From Cyanothece sp. BG0011 (GTDB lineage Bacteria > Cyanobacteriota > Cyanobacteriia > Cyanobacteriales > Microcystaceae), in NCBI RefSeq assembly GCF_003013815.1, contig NZ_PRLH01000144.1, positions 1-43,912 of the forward strand: DNA of 43,912 nt, read 5' to 3'. Below the pieces are notes generated by a model, which did not search any database, was not told where the DNA came from, and saw only the letters and a list, made by a program, of their open reading frames with translations. Position numbers and translations under genes: made by a program. Below are positions 1 through 13,619 of this stretch, one piece after another. Numbering within the stretch: the first letter of the stretch is position 1; the number at the start of each line of letters is the position of its first letter.

Positions 1-1632
1 CATAAAGCAGAAACAGAAAAACAATTTCAAGCTAGAAAAAGAAGATTAATCAAAACTCACGAAACTCAGTTAAGAAACTGTAAGCAGAAAAAAAGAGAGT
101 TAGAAGATGAATATCAAATCAGACGAGAAGAATTAATCAATAAACAAAAAAGAGAACTCGAAGATTTAAAGTCAAAACCAGCAGAAAAAGACGAAGAATT
201 TAAAAGAAGATTGGAAGAATTTAAACAAAAAAAAGAACAATGGCAAGCAGAATTAAGAACCGCTATTGTTGATTCTGGTATTAAAAACTTAACTCTTTGG
301 CTATGGCATTTTAAAGACTATAATCTACAAGATCGTCTCAAAGCTATTCAATATTGTTTAGGTATTTCAAATACAGAAGATGGTAGTTATTCTTTTGATG
401 AAGGATTAACAATTAATATTAAAACTCAAGAAATGGGCAGAATTGCAGAGAGATTAAATTTATCTGTTGACGAAAGACCAGATAATCAGACAATAATTGA
501 AGCTACCGAACAAAGAATTACTGAAATTAGAGAAATAGTTCAATCTAATAGAGATAATATTGCCGAACATACAGCAGTCTGGGTCGAACTATATGGTCAG
601 GAAATTTATAAATTTACTAATAGAAAATATACTCCTTGGTGCGATCCAAAAAATGCTATTAAATTGGGGTTTGCCAAGCTAGGTTTTGTCAGCAAGTTTA
701 TAACTCCACAAAGAAAAAGCTACAAACACAAAGCAATTACTAGCTTAATAGAATTCTTGCGACAGTTAGGGGTTAGAATTGCACCTTCTAATATTCAATT
801 AAGTAACGTAGATTCTAATACTTCGATTAATGAAGTAGCATTATGGCTAGTAAATAAAACAGGTGGAACTACAATTAATAATCAATCTTTAATTTTACCT
901 GTAATGGTGAGAATGGGTTCAGATTCTCAACAAATAGAAGCAATTTTTCCTGGTAATGATGTATGGATACCTTATCGGGAAGTATTAACTAAAATCAATG
1001 ATGCTGAAAGCTGGAAAAACGACGATAAAGGCAAAAATAAAGTTAGAACTTTTATACAACAAACACTTAAAACCAAAGAACTAAGAAATAAACCCACAAT
1101 ACTTTATTGTAAAGCAGAAAATATCCGTTCAGCTTGGTCTTGGTTACAAGATACACAAATATCTAACAAAGGGCTATCCTTTTCAGATAAAAAAGATAAA
1201 AAGCAAATATTTGAAGAATTTCTAGGTTTAAGAGTAATTCGATTACGAAATAGCGAAACCCCCGAATGGTTTGCTGTAGATGGCGAAAAAATATCGGGAT
1301 TCGTGACGGGTTTATTTAAAAAAGAAAATAGCGATCGCGTATTCTATAGCTTGGGAAACAAAAGCGCACAAATGACTGGGCAAAACTCGGATTCAAAAAT
1401 TAAAAATCCCGAAAAAAGTTGGGGACATCCATCACTTTTAGAAATAACGATCGCCTATCATCAACCAAAAGATAACTTGACAGAATTAGCGGCGATCGCA
1501 CACGAATCAAGAAAAGGTATTTTACAATATGCAGATTGTTTGGAAGTCCCGAGAGTTTTACACTATGCCAAGCAAATAAATGAATATGTCTTGATGGCCA
1601 ATGAAACGGAAAACGAAGATGAAGAAAACTGA
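1..1632 (+). CDS. pPIWI_RE family protein (prokaryotic PIWI-like), 3' part, cut by left edge
   Basis: The frame is open from base 1 to the TGA at 1630-1632, so at least 543 codons are visible and the start lies outside the window. Codons 1-85 are a Lys/Glu-rich predicted coiled coil. Next comes a MID-like segment whose motif DPKNAIKLGFAK (near 643-678) matches the DPK-x-A-x-R-x-G motif of pPIWI_RE proteins. A PIWI/RNase H-like half follows, with VWIPYREVL (near 961), ENIRSAWSWL (near 1117) and a C-terminal strand HPSLLEITI (near 1426). The family is named for a conserved Arg and Glu; my candidates are the Arg at 1126-1128 and the Glu at 1441-1443. pPIWI_RE genes are known as the core of a predicted RNA-dependent defence/restriction module with a nuclease and a helicase. 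Those partners would be to the left; nothing to the right fits. Codon use is more AT-rich than in downstream housekeeping genes, consistent with an accessory gene. The family call is good, but activity cannot be judged. Confidence 0.75.
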   Translation, partial: HKAETEKQFQARKRRLIKTHETQLRNCKQKKRELEDEYQIRREELINKQKRELEDLKSKPAEKDEEFKRRLEEFKQKKEQWQAELRTAIVDSGIKNLTLWLWHFKDYNLQDRLKAIQYCLGISNTEDGSYSFDEGLTINIKTQEMGRIAERLNLSVDERPDNQTIIEATEQRITEIREIVQSNRDNIAEHTAVWVELYGQEIYKFTNRKYTPWCDPKNAIKLGFAKLGFVSKFITPQRKSYKHKAITSLIEFLRQLGVRIAPSNIQLSNVDSNTSINEVALWLVNKTGGTTINNQSLILPVMVRMGSDSQQIEAIFPGNDVWIPYREVLTKINDAESWKNDDKGKNKVRTFIQQTLKTKELRNKPTILYCKAENIRSAWSWLQDTQISNKGLSFSDKKDKKQIFEEFLGLRVIRLRNSETPEWFAVDGEKISGFVTGLFKKENSDRVFYSLGNKSAQMTGQNSDSKIKNPEKSWGHPSLLEITIAYHQPKDNLTELAAIAHESRKGILQYADCLEVPRVLHYAKQINEYVLMANETENEDEEN

Positions 1633-1886
1633 AAGCGATCGCACTAAACTAAACTTGCTATTAAAATAATTTCTGAAATCAGATTAAATCGATGAAAGTC
1701 AGATTATTTACTGTTATCGTCTCCTAATTACCTTCTAAATACAATTGTGTCTTATCTAAATTGAATTGATTATAACATCCCCCAAAAGCATGAAAAAAAA
1801 TCATCTGTTATGGGGAGGTGACATAGAAAAATAAATTGTTTGAATAGAAATAACTTTAATTGAGATATATTTGAGGAGTGCTACTT

Positions 1887-2045
1887 ATGTTATACAAACC
1901 CCTAAAAATAATGGTTATTACTGCTACTATTTTCGTGTGGATCAGACTCCTAGCAGGAACCGTAGAAGTCTTTAATAATCCTGATCAAAGCTTATTAGAT
2001 AATCAGAGGATCGCTTCAGAATCTAAGTCGTATATTCAGCGTTAA
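1887..2045 (+). CDS. small hypothetical protein with N-terminal membrane segment, 52 aa
   Basis: ATG at 1887 is preceded by GAGGAG at 1873-1878, a good ribosome binding site. The product is 52 residues. Residues 8-24 are hydrophobic, with one Arg (VITATIFVWIRLLAGTV), which suggests a signal anchor or export signal followed by a short polar tail. The last 23 bases overlap convergently with the 3' end of argJ. I do not recognise the family. The ribosome binding site and hydrophobic start make it plausible, but the short length leaves real doubt. Confidence 0.4.
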   Translation: MLYKPLKIMVITATIFVWIRLLAGTVEVFNNPDQSLLDNQRIASESKSYIQR

Positions 2046-3267
2046 TCTTGACATAATCATAACTTAAATCACAACCCCAAGCGATACCTTTTCCTGAACC
2101 ATTGCCGACGCAAACGGAGATTAAAACGGTATCTTCTTGTAAATAGGTTCCTTGTGCAGCTTTTTTCATGTAATCACTGGCTGCATCACGATCATAGGGC
2201 AAGGGTTGTCCATTTTCCATCATCACATACTCACCCAAGATAATGCGTAAATCTTCTTGATGAAACATCACCCCAGCGCGGCCGGCGGCGGCTGCAATAC
2301 GGCCCCAGTTAGGATCACGACCAAAAATAGCCGATTTAACCAAGGATGACCCCACAATGGTTTTAGCAATGTGTCGGGCTGCCTCATCATCTGGCGCACC
2401 GGATACTTGTACCTCCACTAAACAAGTCGCTCCTTCTCCATCTCTGGCGATCGCTTTTGCTAAATGTTGACACACAGTGGTTAACATTGTCTGCAAGGTT
2501 TGAGCATTTTTACTATTCATATCCGTAATGGCCGGAGTCCGAGATTGACCATTAGCCAGAGCAATTAAACTATCATTGGTACTGGTATCCCCATCGACAG
2601 TAATCTGATTAAAGCTTTCATTAGCTGCTTTGCTTAACATTTCTTGCCATAACCCTGTTGAAACCGCAGCATCACAGGTGACAAAGGATAGCATGGTGGC
2701 CATATTGGGGTGAATCATCCCGGACCCCTTAGCGATACCTCCAACCCTCACGGGACGGTTATCGATCATGGTTTCTAGAGCAATTTCTTTGGTCACTAAA
2801 TCAGTGGTAATAATGGCGTTGGCTGCGGCTTCGTTGCCATCAGCCGACAAATTTGCCACTAATTGAGGGATTCCAGACCGTAACGCCTCCATCTTGATCC
2901 GTTGTCCGATCACCCCCGTAGAAGCCAAAAGAACTGCCTCTGGAGCGATGTTTAAGGCTTGGGCAACTAATTGAGAGGATTCTACTGCATCTTGCCACCC
3001 TTGTTTGCCGGTTCCTGCATTCGCTTGACCGGCGTTACAGAGAATAGCTTTTGCGCTGGCTTTTTGTTGTAGTTTTTGGCGACAATAATCAACACAAGCA
3101 GCCCTTACCTGAGACGTAGTAAACACCCCTGCTGCGATCGCTTCTGCATCCGAGATAATTAGGGCTAAATCGGGTTTTCCTGACGGTTTTAGCCCGGCGG
3201 CTATTCCTGAGGCTTTAAACCCTTTGGGGGCGGTTATTCCTCCTGCAATTTTGCTGTAGTTTTCCAT
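2023..3267 (-). CDS. argJ: bifunctional glutamate N-acetyltransferase / amino-acid acetyltransferase ArgJ
   Basis: ArgJ transfers the acetyl group from N-acetylornithine to glutamate, and in bifunctional forms also makes N-acetylglutamate from acetyl-CoA. It runs the cyclic arginine pathway in the cytosol. The 414-residue protein has the usual family length. It contains the self-cleavage site in KGSGMIHPNMATML, with Thr191 as the predicted nucleophile that becomes the N-terminus of the beta chain. The N-terminal GGITAPKGF and the oxyanion-hole region ASTGVIG are also present. The ATG at 3267 is the natural start. The gene stands alone; the upstream minus-strand ferredoxin gene is separated from it by a terminator at 3411-3480. 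Confidence 0.96.
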   Translation of the reverse strand: MENYSKIAGGITAPKGFKASGIAAGLKPSGKPDLALIISDAEAIAAGVFTTSQVRAACVDYCRQKLQQKASAKAILCNAGQANAGTGKQGWQDAVESSQLVAQALNIAPEAVLLASTGVIGQRIKMEALRSGIPQLVANLSADGNEAAANAIITTDLVTKEIALETMIDNRPVRVGGIAKGSGMIHPNMATMLSFVTCDAAVSTGLWQEMLSKAANESFNQITVDGDTSTNDSLIALANGQSRTPAITDMNSKNAQTLQTMLTTVCQHLAKAIARDGEGATCLVEVQVSGAPDDEAARHIAKTIVGSSLVKSAIFGRDPNWGRIAAAAGRAGVMFHQEDLRIILGEYVMMENGQPLPYDRDAASDYMKKAAQGTYLQEDTVLISVCVGNGSGKGIAWGCDLSYDYVKINAEYTT

Positions 3268-3410
3268 AGTTAATCCAAGTCCTCTGGTGGTATTTATTAC
3301 TTACGGTTACTGTGCGATCGCTGTTTTGTCTGTGGAGATCACAACTCGATCTATCTTAAAGCTTTGTTTAAAGGTTCTCTAATTCTCTCTTTTTTTCTTT
3401 ATCTCAAGGA

Positions 3411-3480
3411 CATAAAAATAAGGTGAGCAGTGATTAATTCATGGTTGATCGAACCTAAATATCACAACTGCTCACCTTAT
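3411..3480 (-). terminator. rho-independent-type terminator after the ferredoxin gene
   Basis: A perfect 13-bp inverted repeat, ATAAGGTGAGCAG at 3418-3430 and its complement at 3468-3480, is followed on the minus strand by TTTTT (complement of 3414-3418). It lies about 32 bases after the ferredoxin stop codon. The 37-nt loop is longer than usual. Confidence 0.6.
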
Positions 3481-3511
3481 CGATTGTTTACGATGATTGA
3501 TCAACAGGGAC

Positions 3512-3934
3512 TTAATGGCTTTTTGGCGGTTTTCTTTTTCTGTCAGGATTATGATGAACTTGAGGAAAACCAAGGGGTTTAACCTGTTGATGTTGACGAA
3601 TCGCTTCGAGTTCATTTAACTCTGTGTAATCAACCCAGTGGATACAATCTACTGGACAAGTATCCATCGCTTCTTGAATGGTATCTTCTTCATCTCCGTC
3701 TTGATTGTAAACCCGCGATCGCCCATAATCTGACTCAATATAAAAGGTATTTGGTGCGACATGGGCGCAGTGCTTACAGCCAATACAAGTAATCTCGTCG
3801 ACGTAAACTCCTTTTTGTCGTAGTTCGCCCCCTAATTCTGGCTCATTACCAGTTCTGTCGGGGGCATCTCGAAAAATACCCCCTAGTTCTGGTTCTAATC
3901 CAGAGCGATCGGGGGTTGGGGAAAAATCAGTCAT
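3512..3934 (-). CDS. ferredoxin-like [4Fe-4S] protein with duplicated N-terminal motif
   Basis: The 140-residue protein has an iron-sulfur cluster motif C-x2-C-x2-C (CIGCKHC, residues about 50-56) and a second part CPVDC (about 93-97). Together these give the four ligands of a single [4Fe-4S] cluster, so it is probably a soluble electron carrier. The N-terminus contains a short repeat, DRSGLEPELGG and then DRTGNEPELGG, about 17 residues apart. This repeat is not part of the cluster fold. The start ATG overlaps the stop of the upstream ycf35-like gene by one base (TAATG), so translation is probably coupled. It is the last gene of a three-gene operon with DUF2997 and DUF1257. The electron-transfer partner is unknown. 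Confidence 0.85.
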   Translation of the reverse strand: MTDFSPTPDRSGLEPELGGIFRDAPDRTGNEPELGGELRQKGVYVDEITCIGCKHCAHVAPNTFYIESDYGRSRVYNQDGDEEDTIQEAMDTCPVDCIHWVDYTELNELEAIRQHQQVKPLGFPQVHHNPDRKRKPPKSH

Positions 3935-4320
3935 TACGCACTCCAGCGTTGGACAACAAGGCGAATTGAACCATCTTCATTCTTTTGTTGTTGGGCTACT
4001 TGGAACCCTTGTTTATTGGACTCATCAAGGATAGTATGCAGGGCATATCCTTGGGTCACTTTTTGCAAAAATCCTTCAACGGATAGGGGCTGTTGCCAAT
4101 ATTGCAAATCGGCGATTAATTCGTATTCGCTACCATTCCAGCTAAAACCAATGTCATAGTTATTTTCTTGTTCAACTACGATTTCAGCCGTACGGGTTTG
4201 ACCTTTGTACCCTCTGACGGTATGGGGTCCTTCTTTCCAGTCGATACCCATGTCATTTAATGATGCTTTGAGGGAGGTGAGGTTACGAATTTGGGTTTTG
4301 ATGTTACTAAAGTGTGACAT
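3934..4320 (-). CDS. ycf35: DUF1257 / Ycf35 family protein
   Basis: This 128-residue protein begins MSHFSNIKTQIRN and continues with a region rich in beta strands (GYKGQTRTAEIVV, YDIGFSWNG, YELIADLQYW). This is the pattern of the Ycf35 family, found in cyanobacteria and some algal plastids and still without a firm biochemical role. It sits between DUF2997 (56 bases upstream) and the ferredoxin gene (one-base overlap). The conserved grouping suggests a shared iron-sulfur or redox task, which is inference. No membrane segment is visible. Confidence 0.85.
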   Translation of the reverse strand: MSHFSNIKTQIRNLTSLKASLNDMGIDWKEGPHTVRGYKGQTRTAEIVVEQENNYDIGFSWNGSEYELIADLQYWQQPLSVEGFLQKVTQGYALHTILDESNKQGFQVAQQQKNEDGSIRLVVQRWSA

Positions 4321-4376
4321 ATTTCTTTGGAATTTTAAACGTTACAAAGGGGGACAAAATCAAGGGAATTTCACCC

Positions 4377-4592
4377 TTACCAATCGCTAAAAGAAGCTTG
4401 ATTCTTGGCTTCTGTGGATTGAGTAACCGGTTGAGCGTAGTATTGAGAAGTCTTTTCATTAGAAACGACTCTCCCTAATTGCGCTTCGATCGCTGCTGTT
4501 ACCTCTTGACAAGAGGAACCTATTATGCCTGTCACTGTTTCTTTGACACGGCCATCAGGGTAAATAATAAATTCTAGGGTTTCCATGTTCAT
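4377..4592 (-). CDS. DUF2997 family small protein
   Basis: The 71-residue protein has the DUF2997 signature in its first half: EFIIYPDGRVKETVTG, then GSSCQEVTAAIEAQLG with one conserved Cys. The tail is Ser/Gln-rich and probably disordered. Family members usually start at Met-Glu-Thr, so the second ATG (4586) may be the true start; neither has a clear ribosome binding site. It is first in the DUF2997-ycf35-ferredoxin operon. The function is unknown. Its fixed company with a ferredoxin hints at cluster delivery or electron transfer. Confidence 0.8.
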   Translation of the reverse strand: MNMETLEFIIYPDGRVKETVTGIIGSSCQEVTAAIEAQLGRVVSNEKTSQYYAQPVTQSTEAKNQASFSDW

Positions 4593-4778
4593 GGTTGATT
4601 CTAGAATAGGGGTCTCTAGGGTGGATAAGGACTGTTTTGCTCCAAAAAAGGATTAATTTTGCCCACTTTTCTCAAGATATTAATCTTGATGAACCGTAGC
4701 ATGATTAATCAAATTTTAGCAAAAGTTAACATTTAATTAGTGGTCTACTTATGTTACTGTAAGTTTCCCTTAACCTTC

Positions 4779-4803
4779 AAAAAAAAGTCAAGGGAGACTT
4801 TTT
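4779..4803 (-). terminator. putative terminator after the DppC-like permease gene
   Basis: An 8-bp perfect stem, AAAAAGTC (4782-4789) and GACTTTTT (4796-4803), has a 6-nt loop. Read on the minus strand it ends in a T run, about 43 bases after the permease stop. The stem is AT-rich, so strength is uncertain. Confidence 0.5.
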
Positions 4804-4845
4804 CGCCTTAGTACGAAGTTAACAAAAATATACAAAATGGACAAA

Positions 4846-5958
4846 TTATTCAAGACTGCGGGGGTCGAGGGCATCCCGTAAACCGTCTCCGAGTAAGTTA
4901 AAGCAGAGAACCGTCAAGATAATCATCAGGGCTGGTGGCCAAATTAACCAAGGCTGCAGCACTAAAATAGAAGCATTGGTCGATACAGACAGTAAATTTC
5001 CCCAACTTGGGTCAGGTTGTTGAATTCCTAAGCCGATCAGACTTAAGATTGATTCGGAGACAATAAAGCCAGGAATGGCTAAGGTTGCCGAGATAATAAT
5101 ATAGGTTGCTGTTTGGGGAAGCACATGACGAACAATAATACGCCAAGGGGTTGCCCCCATGGCCTTGGCGGCCTGTACAAACTCTTGTTCTTTGAGAGAG
5201 AGAACTTGACCCCGGATAACCCTAGCGAGTCCTGACCAACTGATAAAAGAAGTAATTAAAACAATCAATAAAAATCGTTGTGCGCTGGTGAGACTAGGAG
5301 GAAGAACAGCCGCCAAAGCCACTAATAAATAAATGCCAGGAATGGTCATTAAGACTTCTACCAAGCGCATTAAAAAAGCATCGATCCAGCCTCCAAAATA
5401 ACCAGAAATGCCCCCAACTATCATACCCAAGGGAAAAGAAACAACAATACCCACAACACCGATAAATAAGCTAATTCTTCCGCCAAATAGTAAACGACTG
5501 AACTGATCTCGTCCTTGTTCATCTGTTCCCAAAAGATTCAAATGAGCCGGGCCAACGGTTCCAAACAGATGACGGTCCATGGGAATACCCGGAAAAAGTT
5601 CCACTTCTTCAAAAGTAGGGGGTAAAGGGAGACGAATTTGTAATAATCGATAGTTGTATCCTTTAGCAAATAAGGTAATGGGTGAGGGTTGCTCAAAATT
5701 GACGTTTAAACTCCGTTTTCCCGTCTCAAGATCCGTCGGACTTTGGGTTGTCGGATAAACATGGGGTCCAATAAACTGGCCGTCTTGAGTGGTCAAATAA
5801 ATGTTGGTGGGAGGAAGGAGTGAACCGTCAGCTTGGGATGAGTAAGGATCATAAGGCGCAACAAAATCTGCAGCAATCACGGCTATATAGAAAATTATCA
5901 GTAAGACTGCCCCAAAACGGGCCAGAGGATTATCTTTAAGTTTTTGCCACCAGTTCAT
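4846..5958 (-). CDS. ABC transporter permease, DppC/OppC type (peptide/nickel family)
   Basis: This inner-membrane permease of 370 residues matches the second permease subunit of dipeptide/oligopeptide importers. It has a cytoplasmic N-terminus, a first membrane segment (about 14-34, followed by FVAPYDP) and the LLGTDEQGRDQFSRLLFGGR motif that precedes the permease domain. The ATPase-coupling EAA loop is EFVQAAKAMGATPWRIIVRHVLP, and the C-terminus is GDGLRDALDPR. It is longer than the usual near-300 residues because about 100 residues are inserted between the first segment and the LGTD motif, probably in the periplasm. No ATPase, binding protein or DppB gene is adjacent, so the partners must be elsewhere. 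The substrate cannot be told. Confidence 0.9.
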   Translation of the reverse strand: MNWWQKLKDNPLARFGAVLLIIFYIAVIAADFVAPYDPYSSQADGSLLPPTNIYLTTQDGQFIGPHVYPTTQSPTDLETGKRSLNVNFEQPSPITLFAKGYNYRLLQIRLPLPPTFEEVELFPGIPMDRHLFGTVGPAHLNLLGTDEQGRDQFSRLLFGGRISLFIGVVGIVVSFPLGMIVGGISGYFGGWIDAFLMRLVEVLMTIPGIYLLVALAAVLPPSLTSAQRFLLIVLITSFISWSGLARVIRGQVLSLKEQEFVQAAKAMGATPWRIIVRHVLPQTATYIIISATLAIPGFIVSESILSLIGLGIQQPDPSWGNLLSVSTNASILVLQPWLIWPPALMIILTVLCFNLLGDGLRDALDPRSLE

Positions 5959-6097
5959 AATTAAAGCTTAATAATTTACCGACAATTATAAACCGAGACT
6001 CACATCTTGCACGTTTGTATTTAACACTTCACTTCAAACTCCGAACGCACATTATGTTATTATTTTCTACAATTTCTAATCAATTAAAGCAACTTTG

Positions 6098-6991
6098 ATG
6101 AAAATCTCTTTTAAAAATACTGCAACTCAACCTTTTAATTTTGTTCCCTATTTATTTTTACTGCCGGCTTTATTATTACTGATTATTACTGTTTTTATTC
6201 CTGCCATTCAAGCCTTTTCTTTAAGCTTTACCCAATACAATTATGATATTACTCAACCGCCGCAATGGGTGGGGTTAGAAAATTTTCAAAGATTACTGCA
6301 AGATTCAGTATTTTGGTTGACCTTAACGAACACAATTTTATACTTAATTGGGGTGGTTCCTTTATTGGTTATTTTGCCTTTATTCCTCGCTATTTTAGTT
6401 AACAATAAACTGAAAGGGATTAGTTGGTTTCGTTTAGCTTTTTATGTTCCTGTGGTTATTTCTATGGTTGTTGCCGGTATTGCCTGGAAAGCTTTGTATA
6501 GTTCTAATGGTTTATTTAACCAAATATTACAACAATTAGGATTCAGTGAGGGTATTCCTTGGTTAACCAGTCCTGAGTTAGCATTATGGAGTGTGATGTT
6601 AGTGACTATTTGGAAAGGATTGGGTTATTATATGGTCATTTATTTAGCAGGATTACAAGCTATTCCAGCAGAATTATATGAAGCAGCGGCTATTGACGGA
6701 TCGGATGGTTGGCGTAAACATTGGGATATAACCATTCCCTTAATGCGTCCTTATTTACTATTAGTAGCTGTTATTTCTTCTATTGCTGCCACTAAAGTGT
6801 TTGAAGAAGTTTATATTATGACGCAAGGCGGCCCTTTAAATCGCTCGAAAACTATTGTTTATTATGTTTATGAAAGAGCATTTGAAGATTTAGATATTAA
6901 TTATGCTTGTACCATTGGCTTGATTCTATTTTTGATTATTTTGGTACTCTCATTTATCAACCTAAAAATTTCTAAAAATCCGACACTTTAG
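6098..6991 (+). CDS. ABC transporter permease, sugar type (MalF/UgpA family)
   Basis: This 298-codon inner-membrane permease (stop included) has six predicted membrane segments. Its EAA loop, AAAIDGSDGWRKHWDITIPLM, is typical of carbohydrate (CUT1) importers, as are the SWFRLAFYVPVVISMVVAG segment and the TQGGPLNRSKTIVYYVYERAF motif near the C-terminus. An in-frame TTG lies just upstream at 6095, but the ATG at 6098 is the better start. It runs divergently from the DppC-like gene with a 139-bp shared gap. The second permease, binding protein and ATPase are not in the window. Glycerol-3-phosphate, glucosylglycerol or another sugar are all possible substrates. Confidence 0.88.
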   Translation: MKISFKNTATQPFNFVPYLFLLPALLLLIITVFIPAIQAFSLSFTQYNYDITQPPQWVGLENFQRLLQDSVFWLTLTNTILYLIGVVPLLVILPLFLAILVNNKLKGISWFRLAFYVPVVISMVVAGIAWKALYSSNGLFNQILQQLGFSEGIPWLTSPELALWSVMLVTIWKGLGYYMVIYLAGLQAIPAELYEAAAIDGSDGWRKHWDITIPLMRPYLLLVAVISSIAATKVFEEVYIMTQGGPLNRSKTIVYYVYERAFEDLDINYACTIGLILFLIILVLSFINLKISKNPTL

Positions 6992-7025
6992 GGTTACTTT
7001 TTTCTAAGTAGCTATTATTAAAACT

Positions 7026-8006
7026 ATGAAAAAAATAATTAAAAACTTACCAAAAGCAGAATTACATATACATATAGAAGGTTCCTTAGAGCCTGAATTA
7101 ATGGTAAAAATAGCCAAACGTAATCATAAAAAATTGCCCTTTAATTCTGTAGAAGAAGCCAAACAAGCTTATCAATTTAACGATCTTCAATCTTTTTTAG
7201 ATATTTATTATCAAGGGACAAATGTTTTATGTACCGAAGAAGATTTTTATGACTTAACTTGGAACTATTTACAGAAAGCAAAAGAACAAAATATTTGTCA
7301 TACAGAAATTTTTTTTGATCCCCAAACTCACACCCATAGAGGTGTACCATTTGCCGCCATTATTACAGGAATTAGTGAAGCATTAAAAGCGGGAAAAGAA
7401 CAATTAGGAATATCGAGTTACTTAATCCTTTGTTTTCTTAGAGATTTAAGCCTAGAATCAGCCTTTGCAACCTTAGAAAATGCAATTAAATATGGGGACA
7501 AAATCAAAGCCATTGGGTTAGATTCAGCCGAAAAGAATAATCCACCTTCTAAATTTAAATCGGTGTTTGAGAAAGGAAGAGCCGCAGGATTTTTAACCGT
7601 TGCTCATGCAGGAGAAGAAGGATCTTCGGACTATATTTGGCAAGCAATTAACCTATTAAAAGTCTCTAGAATCGATCATGGAGTACGTTGTATTGATGAT
7701 CCGAAATTAGTTGAATATTTAGCTAAAATGCAAATTCCTTTAACGGTTTGTCCTTTATCTAATGTTAAATTAAAAGTGTTTAATTCTTTAGAGGAACATA
7801 ACCTTAAAATTTTATTAGATCAGGGATTATGTATTACCATTAATTCCGATGACCCGGCTTATTTTGATGGCTATCTCAACGAAAATTTTATAGGGATTTC
7901 TCAGGCTCTTAATTTAACAGAAACTGATCTCAAAAAACTGATTAATAATTCTTTTAAAGCCTCCTTTCTTGACCCCAGAGACAAAGAAAAATTGTATCTT
8001 AACTAA
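7026..8006 (+). CDS. adenosine/adenine deaminase family protein (adenine deaminase type favoured)
   Basis: This zinc hydrolase of purine salvage has 326 residues. The metal and catalytic residues are all visible: HIH (His14, His16), HAGEEG (His194, Glu197), RIDHG (His218) and NSDDPAYF (Asp275). The block TVCPLSNVKLKVF is characteristic of the adenine deaminase branch (yeast Aah1-like) rather than classical adenosine deaminase. The reaction is therefore probably adenine to hypoxanthine plus ammonia. The gene starts 34 bases after the sugar permease stop and may share its transcript. Its stop directly abuts the convergent yidD gene. The family is certain; substrate choice is inference. Confidence 0.88.
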   Translation: MKKIIKNLPKAELHIHIEGSLEPELMVKIAKRNHKKLPFNSVEEAKQAYQFNDLQSFLDIYYQGTNVLCTEEDFYDLTWNYLQKAKEQNICHTEIFFDPQTHTHRGVPFAAIITGISEALKAGKEQLGISSYLILCFLRDLSLESAFATLENAIKYGDKIKAIGLDSAEKNNPPSKFKSVFEKGRAAGFLTVAHAGEEGSSDYIWQAINLLKVSRIDHGVRCIDDPKLVEYLAKMQIPLTVCPLSNVKLKVFNSLEEHNLKILLDQGLCITINSDDPAYFDGYLNENFIGISQALNLTETDLKKLINNSFKASFLDPRDKEKLYLN

Positions 8007-8231
8007 TTATTTTTTTGTGATAGGAGGAACCGGATCGTATCCTCCAGGATGAAACGGATGACAGCGTAAAATTCTTTTTAAACCTAACCAACTCCCCCGT
8101 AAAGCCCCAAATTTTTCAATCGCTTCTAAGGTATATTGGGAGCAAGTAGGACGAAAACGACAACTCGGAGGAAATAAAGGAGAAATCAAGGTACGATAAC
8201 CTTTAATCAATAAAATAAGAATTTTTTTCAT
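8007..8231 (-). CDS. yidD: membrane protein insertion efficiency factor YidD
   Basis: The 74-residue protein shows the full YidD signature: [22 protein letters not shown], then a [25 protein letters not shown] segment, and the tail [12 protein letters not shown]. It is a small membrane-associated protein, with an amphipathic N-terminal helix, that helps YidC-dependent insertion of inner-membrane proteins. In many bacteria it neighbours rpmH-rnpA-yidC. Here it is alone and converges tail to tail with the deaminase gene. The ATG start is clear. Confidence 0.95.
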
Positions 8232-8302
8232 TAATCTTAGTAAAGAGAAAACTTAGCGTAAGAGAGCCTTTTAATTTATAATAGAAGATGGTGATCATTA
8301 TC

Positions 8303-8338
8303 GAGTCGTTTTAACTAAAAACGTCGTGACGACTTTTT
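8303..8338 (+). promoter_or_regulatory. terminator-like hairpin in the leader of the hydrolase gene
   Basis: AGTCGT (8304-8309) can pair with ACGACT (8329-8334), and TTTTT follows (8334-8338), 18 bases before the ATG at 8357. A competing inner pairing GTTTT/AAAAC and a short GTCGTGACGAC palindrome are also possible. It could be an attenuator or just the end of an upstream transcript. Confidence 0.3.
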
Positions 8339-8356
8339 GAGAGGGTAAGATAATTC

Positions 8357-9232
8357 ATGCCAACCATCGATATATCGGGAGTGCCTCATGCTTATGAGCT
8401 AACGACTCCCTCTGCCAAACCTTCGACCCCTGTGTTAATTTTTATTCATGGCTGGCTCTTAAGCCGTCAATATTGGCTACCCTTAATTAATGAATTATCC
8501 CCCGACTATCCTTGTTTGACTTACGATCTCAGAGGGTTTGGAGACTCTCAACCGTTAGATAATTATTTATTAGAAAAAAATAAGACTTCCTCTCCCTACA
8601 CTTTAGAAGCATATGCTCAAGATTTGATTATTTTACTAGAAAAATTAAATATTCAACGAGGGTGGTTAATTGGCCATTCTTTGGGAGGTAGTATTGCCTT
8701 ATGGGGGGCTGATCTGTGTCCCGAAAAAATACAAGGGGTTGTTTGTTTAAACGCCGGTGGAGGTATCTATTTAAAAGAAGAATTTGAGCGGTTTCGCCTC
8801 GCTGGACAACAATTAGTTAAATATCGCCCTCGGTGGTTATCTAATGTGCCGTTAATCGATATTCTCTTTTCTAGAATTATGGTGGCTAGTCCGATTGAGC
8901 GACAATGGGGGAAACAACGAGTGATCGATTTAATGAGGGCAGATTCAGAAGCAGCCTTAGGCTCCTTATTAGATTCTACGACAGAAAGTGAAGTTCATTT
9001 ATTACCCCAAATTGTGTCCCGTCTAGTTCAACCCGTTTATTTCTTTTCAGGGGACAAAGACACGGTAATGGAACCCCAATATGTTCGTTATTTAGCTAGT
9101 TTTCATGAACTCTTCAAATATCAAGGTCAGAATGTCATTGATGTTCCTAATTGTGGTCATTTATCTATGGTAGAACAACCTGAATTATTAGGGGAAAAAA
9201 TGCTGAATATTTTAATGACGCATGAAGTTTAA
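8357..9232 (+). CDS. alpha/beta hydrolase
   Basis: This 291-residue protein has the alpha/beta-hydrolase fold. It carries the oxyanion HGW motif (HGWLLSRQYW, about 31-40) and YDLRGFGDS before the nucleophile elbow. The elbow is GHSLGG with Ser108. An acid lies in SGDKDTV (Asp233 or Asp235), and the catalytic His268 is in CGHLSMVEQPE. It lacks a signal peptide, so it is probably cytosolic. Related cyanobacterial proteins are annotated as esterases, haloperoxidase-like enzymes or lipid-active hydrolases; the substrate here is not visible. A terminator-like hairpin lies in its leader. Confidence 0.88.
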   Translation: MPTIDISGVPHAYELTTPSAKPSTPVLIFIHGWLLSRQYWLPLINELSPDYPCLTYDLRGFGDSQPLDNYLLEKNKTSSPYTLEAYAQDLIILLEKLNIQRGWLIGHSLGGSIALWGADLCPEKIQGVVCLNAGGGIYLKEEFERFRLAGQQLVKYRPRWLSNVPLIDILFSRIMVASPIERQWGKQRVIDLMRADSEAALGSLLDSTTESEVHLLPQIVSRLVQPVYFFSGDKDTVMEPQYVRYLASFHELFKYQGQNVIDVPNCGHLSMVEQPELLGEKMLNILMTHEV

Positions 9233-9299
9233 CAGTGATTAATTAATTATTAGTTAATAACATCTTTCTAGAATCTATAAAAACTAAACAAGAAACTAG

Positions 9300-9475
9300 A
9301 AAAAATCTATTTTAAAATCGTTACAGTCAAAAACAAATACTATTGCCACCCCCTCTAACTCTCCCTTTTGTGAGGGGGAGAACCCTTGCCTATTGCCTAT
9401 TGCCCTGCCCCCAACCCCCCACACCCCCCACACCCCCCTTTAAAAGGGGGGCAGGGGGGGTTAGGTTTATCGAAG
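9300..9475 (+). repeat. composite dispersed repeat with C/G-rich palindromic tract, copy 1
   Basis: The segment starts with CGTTACAGTCAAAAAC (near 9319) and runs through short CTATTGCC units. It ends in a C-rich tract containing the 19-bp palindrome CCCCCCTTTAAAAGGGGGG (9433-9451) followed by G-rich sequence. The palindrome recurs at 42162-42180, and the GTTACAGTCAAAA module recurs inverted near 42245-42262. It lies between the hydrolase gene and the CBS-protein gene, which converge. Confidence 0.75.
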
Positions 9476-9491
9476 GTGCAAAATATGGGAA

Positions 9492-10829
9492 TTAATAAAT
9501 ATCATTAGGGGTTTGATTTAATAAAGGTTGACTAACGGGCATGACTAACACTTTATCCACTCGATTTCCGTCCATGTCCATTACTTCAAATTTTAAGCCT
9601 TTCCAATTAAAACTATCGGCTGCTTTAGGAATTTTGCCTAGATAAGTAATGACAAAACCCCCTAATGTATGGAAATTACCCTGTTTTTCGCCAGGAATCA
9701 TATTCAGTCGGAAGACCTTCTTAAACTCATCAACGCCTACGGTTCCATCCATTAACCAAGACCCATCTTCTCGCCGTATAATTGAAGGGATAACGGTTTG
9801 ATCGATGCGAGGAATATCACCGACAATGGCTTTTAACATATCATTAATAGTCACTAATCCTTGAACAATTCCATATTCATCTACCACTAAAGCAATATGA
9901 TTTCCCGTTTGTTGAAATAATTGTAAGACTTTTAATCCTAGGGTACTATCAGGAACGAATAAAGGTTGTCCCAAGGATGCCGTTAAATCAAACTGTTGAC
10001 AAGATAAACAACCAGATAATAAAGTAGTGACCTGAACAATCCCTAAAACTTCTTCTAAACTGCCTTGACACACAGGAAAACGAGTATGGGTACTATGGAC
10101 GATTTTATTACGATTCATCTCAGCCGAATCTTCTAGATTTAACCACACAATTTCAGGCCGAGTGGTCATTAAACTGCTTACTCTGCGATCGCCTAATTGT
10201 AAAACCCTCTCCACCATATCCTGTTCCACTTCTTCAAACATTCCTGCTTCTTTTCCCTGTTTCAACATGACTTTAATTTCTTCTTGAGTCACCGGCGGTT
10301 CAGTAATCGTCGTGGTAACCCCCAACAAAGATAAAATAAAATCTGTCGAAGCCCCTAATAAATTGACAATAGGGGAAACTAAACGAGAGACATATAACAA
10401 AGGAACGGCCATCAATGTGGCAATTCCTTCGGGATCACTCAAGGCTAAACGTTTAGGAACTAATTCCCCAATCACTAACGACAAATAGGTTAAACAAAGG
10501 ACAACAATGGTAATGGCGATGGTTTCGCTATGAACCATTAAACCAGGAACACGCTGTAACACCACCGTTAGATGGGCTGAGAGGTTAGCTCCTCCATACA
10601 CTCCGGCCAAAATGCCAATCAGGGTAATACCGATTTGTACCGTTGATAAAACCTGGTTGGGGTCATTGGCTAATTCTAAAGCAATTTTTGCTCTGCGATC
10701 GCCTCGAAGACTCATTTGCTCTAAGCGAATTTTGCTAGAGGAGACTAGCGCTATCTCCGATAGGGCAAAGATAGCATTACATAAGACCAATAGAAGGATA
10801 ACGAGAAGTTCGCTTGCGATCGAAACCAT
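9492..10829 (-). CDS. CNNM/CorC-TlyC family membrane protein with CBS domains
   Basis: The 445-residue protein has the standard three parts. Residues 1-185 are a DUF21/CNNM membrane region with hydrophobic helices starting SELLVILLLVLCNAIFALSE. A CBS pair spans roughly 210-325 (MTTRPEIVWLNLED, then LVVDEYGIVQGLVTINDMLKAIVGDIP). A C-terminal CorC/HlyC domain at about 345-425 includes GTVGVDEFKKVF and LGGFVITYLGKIP. The family is implicated in magnesium or cobalt transport and in ion tolerance; the old name hemolysin is not a proven activity. The gene converges with the hydrolase across the C/G-rich repeat. Confidence 0.9.
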   Translation of the reverse strand: MVSIASELLVILLLVLCNAIFALSEIALVSSSKIRLEQMSLRGDRRAKIALELANDPNQVLSTVQIGITLIGILAGVYGGANLSAHLTVVLQRVPGLMVHSETIAITIVVLCLTYLSLVIGELVPKRLALSDPEGIATLMAVPLLYVSRLVSPIVNLLGASTDFILSLLGVTTTITEPPVTQEEIKVMLKQGKEAGMFEEVEQDMVERVLQLGDRRVSSLMTTRPEIVWLNLEDSAEMNRNKIVHSTHTRFPVCQGSLEEVLGIVQVTTLLSGCLSCQQFDLTASLGQPLFVPDSTLGLKVLQLFQQTGNHIALVVDEYGIVQGLVTINDMLKAIVGDIPRIDQTVIPSIIRREDGSWLMDGTVGVDEFKKVFRLNMIPGEKQGNFHTLGGFVITYLGKIPKAADSFNWKGLKFEVMDMDGNRVDKVLVMPVSQPLLNQTPNDIY

Positions 10830-10991
10830 AGAAACTTGGTCTCAGCTTGAGTTCAAGATAGCTGATCACTTCTAGTATCAACCATTAATCCCCTGAAAAA
10901 CAGGGTGATCCTTAGTTAAATTTTTATGAAGTCCTGACATTTTTTTGATAAAAATGTAACAATAGATACAGAAAGTATTTTAAAAGTTCTC

Positions 10992-11018
10992 AATCTTCCC
11001 GTCAAATTCGGGAAAGAT
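10992..11018 (+). promoter_or_regulatory. hairpin in the leader of the DUF4278 gene
   Basis: ATCTTCCCG (10993-11001) pairs with CGGGAAAGAT (11009-11018), with one bulged A and a 7-nt loop. It lies 30 bases before the ATG at 11049 and just upstream of a strong ribosome binding site, GGAGG at 11034-11038. It could be an mRNA-stabilising 5' structure. There is no T run, so it is not a terminator. Confidence 0.35.
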
Positions 11019-11048
11019 GGGGGAACAGTAATCGGAGGAAAATAAATT

Positions 11049-11231
11049 ATGAAACTGTCATTTCGCGGAATCAGCTATAATCATGACCCGATGACCATAG
11101 AAACCAGCAATACAGAGGTCGAAGGAACTTATCGGGGTGTTCATTGGAAAAATCACCCTTATGCAAAATCTCGTCATAGTCATGGCAACAAGCAGATGAC
11201 CTATCGTGGTATCCATTATGTAGAAAATTAA
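11049..11231 (+). CDS. DUF4278 family small protein
   Basis: The 60-residue protein starts MKLSFRGISYNHDP and ends with the repeated pattern TYRGIHYVEN. An internal GTYRGVHWKNHP repeats the same YRG-(I/V)-x-(Y/W) motif. This triple YRG pattern defines DUF4278, a small family almost confined to cyanobacteria, with no known function. The start is firm because GGAGG lies 10 bases upstream. The next gene begins 59 bases after the stop and could be cotranscribed. The protein is basic and His-rich, with no membrane segment. Confidence 0.85.
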   Translation: MKLSFRGISYNHDPMTIETSNTEVEGTYRGVHWKNHPYAKSRHSHGNKQMTYRGIHYVEN

Positions 11232-11290
11232 TGTTTTTACTTTGAGTGTTTTGATGTTGGTTTAACTTAACTTTTTTAGGAACAGTGGAT

Positions 11291-11695
11291 ATGAAATTTT
11301 CAGAACGTCGTTTTAGAGGGGATGAGCAGCCCAATGCTTTAGATAGGGGTAATGAAACCGTCATCCAAAGACATTGTAGGCAAAGATGGAAATACGAATA
11401 TCCTCGACATATGAGACCTCGCCCTTGTACTGTATCGACACAAAATCCCCTGACTCATTCTCCTGTTGAGTCTCAAGTGGTGATTGATCGAGCATTAGAG
11501 GGTCAAGTTTGTCCAATTTCCATCAAATCCCCTGAACCATTGCCTGTGAATGAAGTATCAAAAACTCATTTACAAAATGTTTGTCGAAACTTAGAACGAC
11601 GACTGAAAAAAGCCCAACTAAACGGAGATCAATGGTTAATTAGTCTATTAGAGAAAGAATTTCAGGATATGGGTCAATTGTGTGTTTTTTCCTAG
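11291..11695 (+). CDS. conserved-looking hypothetical protein, 134 aa
   Basis: I do not recognise this protein. The ATG at 11291 has AGGA at 11278-11281. A GTG at 11285 is an alternative but a weaker start. The N-terminal half is basic and rich in Arg, Pro and His (residues 1-45). The middle is low in structure. The C-terminus has a helical segment with a charged pattern (CRNLERRLKKAQLNGDQWLISLLEKE) that looks like a helix-turn-helix-sized hairpin. The gene follows DUF4278 and ends 25 bases before a clear terminator, supporting a two-gene transcript. It contains no signal peptide or membrane helix. Confidence 0.6.
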   Translation: MKFSERRFRGDEQPNALDRGNETVIQRHCRQRWKYEYPRHMRPRPCTVSTQNPLTHSPVESQVVIDRALEGQVCPISIKSPEPLPVNEVSKTHLQNVCRNLERRLKKAQLNGDQWLISLLEKEFQDMGQLCVFS

Positions 11696-11720
11696 ATTTT
11701 TGTTGTCAAGAAAATTTAAA

Positions 11721-11754
11721 CCCCATCTAAATATCTTAGATGGGGAATTCTTTT
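11721..11754. terminator. terminator between convergent genes
   Basis: A perfect 10-bp stem, CCCCATCTAA (11721-11730) and TTAGATGGGG (11736-11745), has a 5-nt loop and is followed by AATTCTTTT. It lies 25 bases after the 134-aa gene and 24 bases after the convergent PAM68-like stop. It is placed best for the plus strand. Confidence 0.8.
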
Positions 11755-11777
11755 AATATTTATATTTCATTTGTTGA

Positions 11778-12248
11778 TTAATTTTTTTTAGCTTCTTGTC
11801 TAGCACTGCGCCATGCTTGAATGGTACGACCCAAATTTTGGGTAAATTCTTGCCATCCCCACCAACCTCCGGCTCGATGTTCATCCCAGGAAGCCGAAAA
11901 GATACCATAACTGAGTCCTAATACCCCTAAACCAAACAATCCTAAACTAACCGCACCAACGGCAGAATTGGGAATATCTAACCAGTCATGACTGACTATC
12001 CAATAAAAGACAAAAAATGAAGACATTCCTAGTCCTGTGGGAATACCCGAAAAAATAGCCATGCGTTTGATCATGCGTTTACTAACGCTGTCAGGAATTG
12101 CGCTAAGACTGGCATCATTAGAGCGTTTTTTCTGTTTTTTAGGGGTTGTAACTGAGGTTGTATTAGTTGCTGGAGCTTTTTTTTCTTTCTTCTTTTTTTT
12201 CTGACGGGGTTCAAAAGGGATAGAGTTCCGTGAGGAGTTGGCTGCCAT
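11778..12248 (-). CDS. PAM68-like protein (DUF3464), photosystem II assembly
   Basis: This membrane protein matches the PAM68 family, which in plants and cyanobacteria helps photosystem II assembly near the CP47/reaction-centre stage. The chosen start is the ATG at 12248 (MAANSSRNSIPFEP). A longer reading from 12290 adds 14 residues that look like leader sequence. Residues 10-50 are a Lys-rich, disordered stretch. The signature PDSVSKRMIKRM follows, then two membrane helices (about 65-85 and 95-115). The conserved end is SWDEHRAGGWWGWQEFTQN. The length of 156 is normal for the family. It stands alone, converging with the 134-aa gene. Confidence 0.85.
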   Translation of the reverse strand: MAANSSRNSIPFEPRQKKKKKEKKAPATNTTSVTTPKKQKKRSNDASLSAIPDSVSKRMIKRMAIFSGIPTGLGMSSFFVFYWIVSHDWLDIPNSAVGAVSLGLFGLGVLGLSYGIFSASWDEHRAGGWWGWQEFTQNLGRTIQAWRSARQEAKKN

Positions 12249-12340
12249 AAGTCTTGAATTGAAATAAAAAATAAAAATGTGATCAATCACACACTTTCGT
12301 TGATTTTAACTTACTGTAGGGATTAATTGCTATTTTATCG

Positions 12341-12392
12341 GTGATCAGTGATTGTCAACTGATCACTGATCACTGATTACTGATTACTGTTA
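12341..12392. repeat. ACTGATCACTGATT-type short repeat with hairpin
   Basis: TGATCAGTGAT (12342-12352) and its complement (12362-12372) form an 11-bp hairpin with a 9-nt loop, followed by tandem ACTGATC/ACTGATT units. It overlaps the stop of the minus-strand gene ending at 12390. Strings of this type are common intergenic repeats in cyanobacteria. Confidence 0.65.
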
Positions 12393-12722
12393 ACTGATAC
12401 TATCTAGACTGAGTGGCACAAAATCACCATAAATCGTTAATCCTAATAACATGGGTTGTCCTGCTTGAATAAGTTTTCCGGTTAATACACAACTTTCGTC
12501 CTTTCTAGCCACTGATTCAATGGTGGCCCGAATATCGACAGCCGAAAATTGCGGTCGATAATCTCCTGATTTTTGCTGTACATAGTTCCAGAGAATATCC
12601 CTGATTAATGCTTGATAACCTTGATGGCCAGAAAGCTCTTTAAGCTTGTCTTTGAGGGTTTTTTCTAAACGGATGCTGGTAACTTCCATTTCGGTGGTTG
12701 AAGTACGGGGAAGAGTTTTCAT
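12390..12722 (-). CDS. small protein with ribbon-helix-helix-like N-terminus
   Basis: The chosen start is the ATG at 12722 (MKTLPRTSTTE). It has AGGA on the minus strand 8 bases upstream; an ATG at 12737 would add five residues but lacks such a site. The 110-residue product has a strand-helix-helix pattern (EMEVTSIRLEKTLKDKLKEL, then GHQGYQALIRDILWNYVQ) typical of MetJ/Arc/CopG-type DNA-binding proteins. The C-terminal half (ESVARKDESCVLTGKLI, then PMLLGLTIYGDFVPLS) looks like a small beta domain of unknown role. It could be a repressor. The short divergent gap to 12772 may hold its operator. The DNA-binding role is inference. Confidence 0.6.
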   Translation of the reverse strand: MKTLPRTSTTEMEVTSIRLEKTLKDKLKELSGHQGYQALIRDILWNYVQQKSGDYRPQFSAVDIRATIESVARKDESCVLTGKLIQAGQPMLLGLTIYGDFVPLSLDSIS

Positions 12723-12771
12723 GATTTTTTTCCTCATTAAAAGGTAGACATTTCAGTAATATAAGTGTAGT

Positions 12772-13068
12772 ATGAAAAAGTCTCTTTTAACACGGTTGAA
12801 AACCTTCATGTTACTTTTTTCTGGCCTCAATTTATTTCTCCGAGTCTTCAGTGGTTGCCAAGGGTGGCCAACTGTGATCATCGGAAAGAGGGGGTTAGAG
12901 ATAAAAAGTAATTGTCCGACTAAGCAAGCAACAGTCTTTAATTTTCCGATATGGAGTCTATTTCATCGAGATTATCCCCTCTCAGGCGATAATGAATCTC
13001 CAGAGATTAGAACATCCCTAACCCTCAAAAGCGGGTGGTGGAGGCAAATCTTCCCTATCCTTAGATAA
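12772..13068 (+). CDS. doubtful small reading frame, 98 aa
   Basis: An ATG at 12772 begins a frame with a basic and then hydrophobic start (residues 1-26, MKKSLLTRLKTFMLLFSGLN), but no Shine-Dalgarno sequence is visible. The remainder (CQGWPTVIIGKRGLEI, IWSLFHRDYPL) resembles no family I know and has erratic composition. A strong terminator follows 28 bases after the stop. The stretch is therefore probably transcribed, but it may be an RNA gene rather than coding. Confidence 0.25.
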   Translation: MKKSLLTRLKTFMLLFSGLNLFLRVFSGCQGWPTVIIGKRGLEIKSNCPTKQATVFNFPIWSLFHRDYPLSGDNESPEIRTSLTLKSGWWRQIFPILR

Positions 13069-13095
13069 ATACCTAACTCCTCAAGGTTTGTCTGA

Positions 13096-13134
13096 CCCCC
13101 CGCTTTACTCCTCTAGTAGAAAGTGGGGGGTTTT
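13096..13134 (+). terminator. strong rho-independent terminator
   Basis: CCCCCCGCTTT (13096-13106) pairs with AAAGTGGGGGG (13120-13130) as an 11-bp stem containing one G-T pair, with a 13-nt loop, and TTTTGTT follows. This is among the strongest terminators in the window. Confidence 0.85.
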
Positions 13135-13241
13135 GTTAGATCAACCAGAGTAAAAAAATGTGATATTTATCTATTATTGTTGTTCTCTTACGTATCGACT
13201 CACATCAATGATTTCTGTCATTTTTAAAGCCACAAAAGACG

Positions 13242-13619
13242 ATGTTAAAACTAACTTATACCCATAATGGATTTTATATTGATTATCTTCAAGAGTCCTT
13301 AGAGACTTGGGTAACAACTCGTGTCATCTTAGCGTTACGGTCAGGAACCAGTCTTTGTGTTGAACCGAGTAGTGCTTCTTTTTTAATTTCTTTAGACTTA
13401 CCTTATGTGAATCAACTATTAGAAGATGTGAACGAATTTACAGGAGAAATTGTCGAGGTTAACCGTTGTGATGAAGAAGCAATGGAAGTTGTTCTAGAAG
13501 GTACTTGGTTAGGTTCAGATATCGCTAGTGAAGAAGGGATATTTATCTGTCGTTTAAGCGATCGCTTAGAATCTCTTCTCTATCAAATCTGGCAAGAGTC
13601 ACCAGTAAAAATTAATTAA
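13242..13619 (+). CDS. conserved hypothetical cyanobacterial protein, 125 aa
   Basis: The 125-residue acidic protein begins MLKLTYTHNGFYIDYLQESLETWV. It alternates strands and helices (VILALRSGTSLCVEPSSASFLISLDL, then LEGTWLGSDIASEEGIFICRLSDRLE). The overall look is of a compact soluble alpha/beta protein. I believe it belongs to an uncharacterised cyanobacterial family, but I cannot name one with certainty. It has no signal peptide or membrane segment. It stands alone, with the strong terminator at 13096-13134 upstream and an HIP1-containing gap downstream. Confidence 0.7.
   Translation: MLKLTYTHNGFYIDYLQESLETWVTTRVILALRSGTSLCVEPSSASFLISLDLPYVNQLLEDVNEFTGEIVEVNRCDEEAMEVVLEGTWLGSDIASEEGIFICRLSDRLESLLYQIWQESPVKIN

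Follow-up and report, generated by a model that had tools for sequence, protein, structure and literature searches.

A three-gene pPIWI_RE operon split between two contigs of Cyanothece sp. BG0011 and the probable AUU start of its REase gene

The window, which is the whole stretch of DNA that was analysed (43,912 nucleotides), begins inside a pPIWI_RE gene, and the gene sequences place it in a REase-helicase-pPIWI_RE operon that is split over two contigs, C72 and C166, of the same genome. We are moderately confident of the following explanation taken as a whole: this would be a known three-gene pPIWI_RE module of the MerR-HTH kind, sitting as a mobile island in a genome that resembles Crocosphaera, in which the PIWI protein acts as the sensor and the REase as the cutter, and in which the REase is limited in two ways.

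The window module is of a known and little-tested kind. pPIWI_RE islands were predicted in 2013 (PMC3702460), and what we add is the rest of the operon, a probably dead PIWI site, a helical insert, evidence about mobility and the observation of the AUU start. A preliminary description made from the DNA letters had called the gene part of an RNA-guided defence module; for the window protein, both 'RNA-guided' and 'defence' are terms that we infer. It had also presented the family as little studied and, in agreement with this, PsPIWI-RE (PMC10991935) was the only tested member that we found in the open-licence literature, where absence is weak evidence.

The gene and its operon

The window is the entire contig C166 of a genome of 5.6 Mb in 227 contigs. 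Frame 1 reads without a stop from base 1 as far as the TGA at 1630-1632, which gives 543 codons in the window. Base 1 is the contig end, therefore the pPIWI_RE protein was truncated by the assembly. Regarding its identity, Pfam matched RNaseH_pPIWI_RE (PF13032, E 1.7e-43, 149.9 bits against a cut-off of 25) and MID_pPIWI_RE (PF18157, E 4e-23, 82.7 bits against 26.6) on the window protein. Both scores are far above the curated cut-offs and confirm the family assigned in the preliminary description. The profile search also found PF13111 (pPIWI_RE_X) outside the window, on the N-terminal piece on C72 (114.8 bits against 30.5). The four motifs from which the family had been recognised are present in the order given then, namely DPKNAIKLGFAK (residues 215-226), VWIPYREVL (321-329), ENIRSAWSWL (373-382) and HPSLLEITI (476-484). 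The PADLOC model PprPIWI matched as well (E 5.6e-93), which is an annotation and not a proof of defence. DUF3893 has been linked to the pPIWI_RE family and DUF3962 to the N-terminal domain of its proteins (PMC3702460), and plasmid homologs carry the annotation DUF3962. The window protein had no match in NCBIfam or among phage records, and a sequence search against solved structures gave a best E of 0.025 with unrelated names. The window contains no tRNA gene and no Rfam family at the gathering score.

We searched the BG0011 genome with the three proteins of an intact operon, L002 (REase, helicase of 1084 aa, pPIWI_RE of 975 aa). Both L002 and L003 are Crocosphaera sp. loci, and the L002 pPIWI_RE protein is 100% identical to that of genome G609, which belongs to the genus of BG0011. 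The end of C72, a contig of 7,672 bp, carries the REase, the helicase and the part of pPIWI_RE that corresponds to residues 1-360 of L002, and C166 resumes at residue 429. The 354 N-terminal codons run from an ATG at 6610 of C72 to 7671, and the assembly gap, counted on the L002 homolog, amounts to around 68 codons of pPIWI_RE if the gene is collinear. The genes on C72 are closely spaced: the REase occupies 2054-3301, the helicase 3298-6591 and pPIWI_RE runs from 6610 to the contig end, the helicase ATG (3298) overlapping the REase stop (3301). This is the order of the published islands, with the gap between C72 and C166 falling inside the third gene, and the same order was found at 15 of 18 loci. 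The remaining three lacked one or more genes by that search, and their pPIWI_RE frames were found by another one.

Fold and catalytic positions

The MID-PIWI fold, proposed as a check in the preliminary description, appears in the predicted structure. The structural work drew on 29 of the 50 listed ORFs, some of which are fragments or repeats of one gene, together with the window protein. The AlphaFold model of the latter (pLDDT 84.7, pTM 0.80) gave 34 Foldseek matches in the PDB at E <= 0.001, and 33 of these are titled Argonaute, PIWI, SPARTA, SPARSA or SPARDA. Rank 22 of the 34 was held by the lobes of the yeast Mediator kinase module, a complex that includes Med13. Med13 is the other PIWI family of PMC3702460. 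The TM-scores by query length were 0.26-0.45, and as far as the model goes the resemblance is one of fold and not a close one. Strands at residues 277-285, 297-306 and 311-315 are followed by a helix at 325-334. For the full-length L002 protein (pLDDT 85.0) there were 97 matches at E <= 0.001; the best 50 of the 97 were Argonaute/PIWI entries (best E 1.8e-13), and for most of these 50 the alignment spanned 923-1,149 columns and the TM-score was 0.33-0.52.

The two presumed catalytic Asp columns hold Asn285 and Lys371 in the window protein (Table 1). In an alignment of 30 rows, Asp was present at both columns in only one of the 29 rows having both, that of G634. The spacing between the two residues is 86, against 85 for D525-D610 of PsPIWI-RE. 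With the positions placed by alignment and spacing, and without the PsPIWI-RE sequence, the PIWI site of the window protein is probably dead; only a subset of pPIWI_RE proteins keeps the catalytic residues (PMC3702460). R414/R416 and E481, the residues of the RE signature, stand at near-invariant columns, and the paralog on C183 of BG0011 lacks the Glu of the pair.

Table 1. Coordinates of the features in the window and at related loci (G000 is the BG0011 genome).
Feature	Position	Strand	Basis
pPIWI_RE, C-terminal 543 codons; 5' end cut by contig edge	1..1632	+	ORF, Pfam, PADLOC, homolog match
Lys/Glu-rich segment inserted between the X and MID domains; 29-residue tandem repeat modelled as three helices, at aa 6-26, 35-54 and 64-91	16..273	+	composition, alignment, self-comparison, AlphaFold
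MID domain PF18157 (aa 112-263); expected guide 5'-end pocket	334..789	+	Pfam; function from PMC3702460
PIWI / RNase H-like domain PF13032 (aa 279-531)	835..1593	+	Pfam, Foldseek
Asn285, presumed column of first catalytic Asp	853..855	+	alignment column, spacing
Lys371, presumed column of second catalytic Asp	1111..1113	+	alignment column
Arg414 and Arg416 (R-x-R), conserved R of RE signature here	1240..1248	+	alignment
Glu481, conserved E of RE signature	1441..1443	+	alignment
Conserved module 3' end in Crocosphaera copies; 93-94% identity after module in G635, G609; G431 match stops at 1639	1633..1695	+	DNA comparison
Right junction zone, without homology to the module or to the empty site	1696..1773	.	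DNA comparison
Flank with argJ-like gene (2023-3267), next to cryptochrome-DASH-like gene in G626, G624	1774..3267	-	gene names by reading translations
Further pPIWI_RE module, other subfamily	L018 (G000:C23) 6129-13666		own genome
Further pPIWI_RE module, other subfamily	L019 (G000:C183) 5036-12296		own genome
Probable ATT start, SD at 7 nt	L017 (G000:C72) 2054; L002 930; L003 4158; L106 960		leader comparison
Probable ATT start, SD at 7 nt	L108 13570; L109 12754; L032 2170; L110 9047		leader comparison
Probable ATT start, SD at 7 nt	L128 9888; L130 2766; L131 1501; L132 1501		leader comparison
Probable ATT start, SD at 7 nt	L133 2766; L134 2766; L136 1501		leader comparison

The Lys/Glu-rich insert

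The preliminary description had seen a long Lys/Glu-rich coiled coil ahead of the MID domain, which might be an oligomerisation arm. The Lys/Glu-rich segment is real, but it is internal and not an N-terminal arm, and a long coiled coil is not supported: the segment contains a 29-residue repeat and forms three separate helices in the models, which in L002 lie at 433-453, 462-481 and 488-519. A linker to unknown domains beyond the window was discarded too, because L002 and L003 place the segment between X and MID.

Regarding composition, K/R/E/Q residues reach a peak of 39 in 60 in the window segment, the highest among 15 proteins compared; the peak was 33-39 of 60 in the group with the insert and did not exceed 27 of 60 in any other member scanned. 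A Lys/Glu-rich segment occupies the same place, between X and MID, in L002, L003 and two Nostoc proteins, and the repeat is common to the Crocosphaera and Nostoc relatives. Self-comparison had its maximum at a lag of 29 residues (0.28 in the window protein, 0.41 in Nostoc), and TRF found an array of 87 bp in 2.4 copies in Nostoc L032. At the insert position the C23 paralog of BG0011 and L036 have a short stretch only, by alignment, and the insert was seen in neither of the BG0011 paralogs, C23 (by alignment) and C183 (by composition only). The insert may be a helical repeat whose role is to space or connect the two lobes, N-terminal and MID-PIWI, or to dock a partner.

Partner proteins and proposed mechanism

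A nuclease and a helicase had been predicted as partners of the window gene, and both are encoded upstream of it on C72. The first is a REase-fold protein in which Pfam recognised a MerR HTH, pPIWI_RE_Y (PF18156) and pPIWI_RE_REase (PF18154). Its D...DxK site (D322, D336 and K338, numbered from the ATT) is invariant in 15 of 15 genes, and the zinc-ribbon cysteines are present. The second is a helicase-like protein that matches pPIWI_RE_Z (PF18155, 171 bits); Pfam matched only this Z domain on it and no helicase domain. Nevertheless, it has Walker A (GIPSAGKS), Walker B (VIIDEVD) and motif VI, with four Cys (337/358/378/384) between Walker A and Walker B. From these motifs and from PMC3702460 it would be a helicase of 'DinG-type'.

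The Asp positions of the PIWI domain are lost and the site of the REase is intact; therefore we read the PIWI protein as a sensor that only binds and the REase as the enzyme that cuts. Judged from these residues, the intact REase is likely to be the cutter rather than the PIWI domain, although PsPIWI-RE cuts with its PIWI domain (PMC10991935). In the mechanism that we propose, pPIWI_RE, loaded with a short guide or placed on an RNA-DNA hybrid, would mark foreign DNA that is being transcribed or replicated, the DinG-type helicase would remodel the marked DNA and the REase, not the PIWI domain, would cut it.

It is possible, though we hold it only tentatively, that no small-RNA guide takes part and that pPIWI_RE attaches directly to R-loops or RNA-DNA hybrids and brings in the helicase and the REase, which is the published model in a guide-free form. 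The DinG-type partner together with the hybrid argument of PMC3702460 would fit this, as would the restriction of PsPIWI-RE cleavage to mixed RNA/DNA pairs (PMC10991935) and the lack of an Rfam family at the gathering score in the window. However, the MID domain has been kept, and conserved residues of it were mapped to the pocket for the guide 5'-end (PMC3702460).

Distribution and mobility

The BG0011 genome has three pPIWI_RE modules, on C72/C166, C23 and C183; the gap divides the first of them, and in the second the REase runs to the contig end. We found PF13032 in 12 of the 386 genomes of the phylum sample and in 100 of the 388 of the order sample, 97 of them above the cut-off. The pPIWI_RE family is common in this order, and with 100 of 388 order genomes carrying it we no longer regarded the rarity of the window gene as a surprise. 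Three matches were listed in 6 of the 100 carrier genomes, BG0011 included, though some of the matches may be pieces of one gene.

In BG0011 the window module lies between a cryptochrome-DASH-like gene and argJ. These two genes are adjacent in G626 and G624, with 75 and 90 bp between the matches; neither genome has a module at the argJ site, and that of G624 is located elsewhere. Because these two relatives have an empty site, the module looks mobile. The adjacency was seen in two of the seven argJ loci fetched and the cryptochrome-DASH match was absent from the fetched stretch in the other five (L099-L103); this neighbourhood is not constant. The conserved module ends at around C72:1947-1979 and at 1689-1695 of the window in the Crocosphaera copies, and at 1986 and 1639 in G431, and the flanking genes differ among L002, L003 and the BG0011 copy.

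We also compared DNA identities between BG0011 and its relatives. Against G431, which belongs to another family, identity was 82.7% in the C72 part of the module, 81.4% in the window part and 72% in argJ. The respective values were 88.2%, 83.9% (part only) and 81% against G624, and 88.2%, 84.4% and 85% against G609. Thus, the excess of the module over argJ is clear for G431, moderate for G624 and absent or slight for G609. Full-length pPIWI_RE relatives lie on two Nostoc plasmids, one of which was typed conjugative. No recombinase gene was seen within the three-gene module of BG0011. The mapped empty sites make the effect of the module testable in near-relatives.

A role of these genes in replication or repair, and not in defence, is unlikely. 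This reading draws on PsPIWI-RE, whose knock-out is more sensitive to ciprofloxacin and for which the authors suggest a role in DNA replication (PMC10991935), but a mobile accessory module fits with the patchy distribution in both samples, the differing flanks in one genus, the empty sites, the identity excess for G431 and the carriage on plasmids.

Some further observations concern mobile elements and repeats. On the Nostoc plasmids L044 and L142 the modules have tyrosine recombinase genes close by, and next to the L142 module there are also genes for a methylase and a HaeIII-type restriction enzyme. A C/G-rich repeat with a TTTAAA core occurs at 9408-9459 and 42137-42188 of the window, and a similar C/G-rich stretch at around 1860-1910 of L017, close to the left junction of the module. 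The window has a TnpB-like gene, named by reading its translation, at 34521-35807 (minus strand). Finally, at 14199-16176 of the window a direct repeat of 300 nt (89%) and repeats of 87 nt surround a small ORF on the minus strand (15495-16037), which is REP-transposase-like by reading.

Start and promoter of the REase gene

The start of the REase was studied in 15 distinct intact MerR-HTH genes. A survey of ORFs found REase-like ORFs at 18 of 20 loci (none in L126 and L127), with the MerR HTH in 10; a survey of the HTH motif over 20 loci found it at 16, 15 of them distinct, and not at the other four. Among these four, L137 (G770) has an HTH with one changed residue and was taken as a 16th gene, and L138-L140 match the REase query only from residue 66-67 onward. 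L044 was omitted from the start counts because it has the same start region as L132.

In 15 of 15 genes there is no ATG, GTG or TTG between the upstream in-frame stop and a conserved ATT, and the SD GAGGA lies exactly 7 nt 5' of this ATT. The first such codon comes at +45, +51 or +60, inside the HTH; CTG was not scored as a canonical start, and it occurs only inside the HTH. The 16th gene, broken downstream, has the same leader. Between +3 and +44 after the ATT, third codon positions took 616 of the 932 pairwise substitutions (column permutation p 5e-5), and upstream of the SD the three codon positions were about equal (798, 912 and 867 substitutions). The codon periodicity appears ahead of any canonical start and therefore translation begins before one. 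Furthermore, BG0011 has ACT five codons before the ATT, where the others have ATT or GTT, which is evidence against a start at that codon. All 15 genes likewise use ATT for another Ile, at alignment column 29, so the invariance of the ATT alone is weak evidence. From the leaders as a whole, the REase probably starts at AUU, a rare start codon. Those REases without the MerR HTH whose starts were read (L019, L036, L041, L122-L125) have an in-frame ATG near the conserved part, and the start of the C23 gene of BG0011 is cut by the contig end. We did not find the AUU start of the REase in print, within the open-licence literature, where absence again says little.

It is very unlikely that this reading is wrong and that translation of the REase starts at the first GTG or TTG within the HTH, or that the protein arises through frameshifting out of an ORF further upstream. 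NCBI does place the start of the Nostoc edaphicum REase at a GTG inside the HTH (CDS at 4516), but it begins the gene of Nostoc sp. TCL26-01 at this very ATT (record position 32169). Moreover, both the codon periodicity and the conservation of the HTH precede any ATG, GTG or TTG, and the position of the first such codon varies among the genes. As to the frameshift, an ATG in a different frame lies just upstream in G609 and G635 but is absent in BG0011.

Upstream of the probable AUU start, at 54-71 nt before the ATT, there are tandem repeats with a 10-bp period, approximately TTTGC(A/C)TAG in either orientation, which score 14-18 of 18 with a motif derived from the very sequences on which it was scored. 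BG0011 has two tandem 10-bp copies at 1999-2017 of C72, and related repeats are found upstream of the other MerR-HTH operons. A promoter-like sequence, TAGACA-18-TATACT, overlaps the BG0011 copies; the stretch has three sites of this kind, against 0.3 expected. A search of the BG0011 genome that allowed up to one mismatch gave a single match to the repeat pattern, at this promoter, and a single match to a reversed control pattern as well. We read the repeats as a candidate operator for autorepression by the HTH of the REase. Autorepression by the HTH had already been proposed, as one of two possibilities (PMC3702460).

The REase would therefore be kept scarce in two ways in the explanation that we favour. 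Its MerR-type HTH would repress the promoter through the 10-bp repeats, which overlap the -35 region, and the AUU start behind the SD would be weak, with an expected discrimination by IF3. Since the helicase ATG overlaps the REase stop, helicase translation may be throttled along with that of the REase. A further idea, which we hold to be unlikely, is that the conserved AUU is a trigger and not a brake alone. The nuclease and the coupled helicase would become abundant only when start-codon fidelity falls, for example if infection or stress shifts the ratio of IF3 to ribosomes; the guided PIWI sensor would thus be armed, and autorepression by the HTH would reset the system.

Integrity of the operon

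That the window gene is a decaying remnant is most unlikely. In favour of decay are the contig break within the gene, the TAA that interrupts the homolog in G431 and the broken REase of G770, but the frames are open on both sides of the break and collinear with the intact L002 homolog to the last codons of each contig, and all three genes retain their domains. The pPIWI_RE gene could be interrupted within the around 68 unsequenced codons. A tandem DNA repeat was discarded as the cause of the contig break, because TRF finds none in the Lys/Glu-rich segment of the window.

Comparison with known systems

The closest likeness described is the three-gene pPIWI_RE island of PMC3702460, with the same gene order, the X/MID/PIWI architecture, Y-ZnR-REase, the Z-helicase and the RE residues, as well as the fusion of a MerR HTH to some REases and the patchy distribution. 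The differences are that the window PIWI domain lacks both presumed Asp and that the AUU start and the helical insert with its 29-residue repeat are additions here; a search of the main text of PMC3702460 gave none of the terms 'start codon', 'initiation codon' and 'coiled'.

PsPIWI-RE of Pseudomonas stutzeri belongs to the same PIWI-RE family and its dinG gene lies directly upstream; it binds a guide and the complementary target, and its RNA-guided cleavage of DNA depends on D525 and D610 (PMC10991935), whereas the presumed counterparts in the window protein are Asn and Lys. This clade is a clean test case for which subunit cuts, the PIWI domain looking dead and the REase intact.

SPARTA/SPARDA and RsAgo are among the best Foldseek matches of the window protein (8i87, 8u72, 6d9k), with a sequence identity of only 8-13% in the Foldseek alignments. 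In these short Argonautes and in RsAgo the N-terminal domain and the operon differ from those of pPIWI_RE. RsAgo has been described as showing RNA-guided DNA binding (PMC10991935), and the EVE-domain paper PMC7641849 deals, in its excerpts, with Piwi-related Argonautes and not with pPIWI_RE.

The HTH of the REase matches the N-terminal HTH of the IS607-family TnpA (62% over 45 residues in Nostoc sp. UHCC 0302). However, the annotated IS607 transposase gene and an unannotated BG0011 ORF with a related HTH (L016, named by reading) both start at ATG, unlike the REase copies with their ATT. If the AUU start holds, a presumed defence operon would have a conserved translational control, and the HTH would be annotated too short in at least one public record.

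Regarding other unusual starts, infC of E. coli starts at AUU. The sigR gene of Streptomyces starts at GTC and is under IF3 control (PMC5472188). The REase has what such non-canonical-start genes have in their sequence, that is no canonical start, an SD at the usual spacing and a near-cognate codon, in 15 of 15 intact genes and in the broken one. IF3 control has been shown for sigR, whereas for the REase we infer it; what sigR, infC and the REase have in common is the non-canonical start of a gene that would be costly if over-produced.
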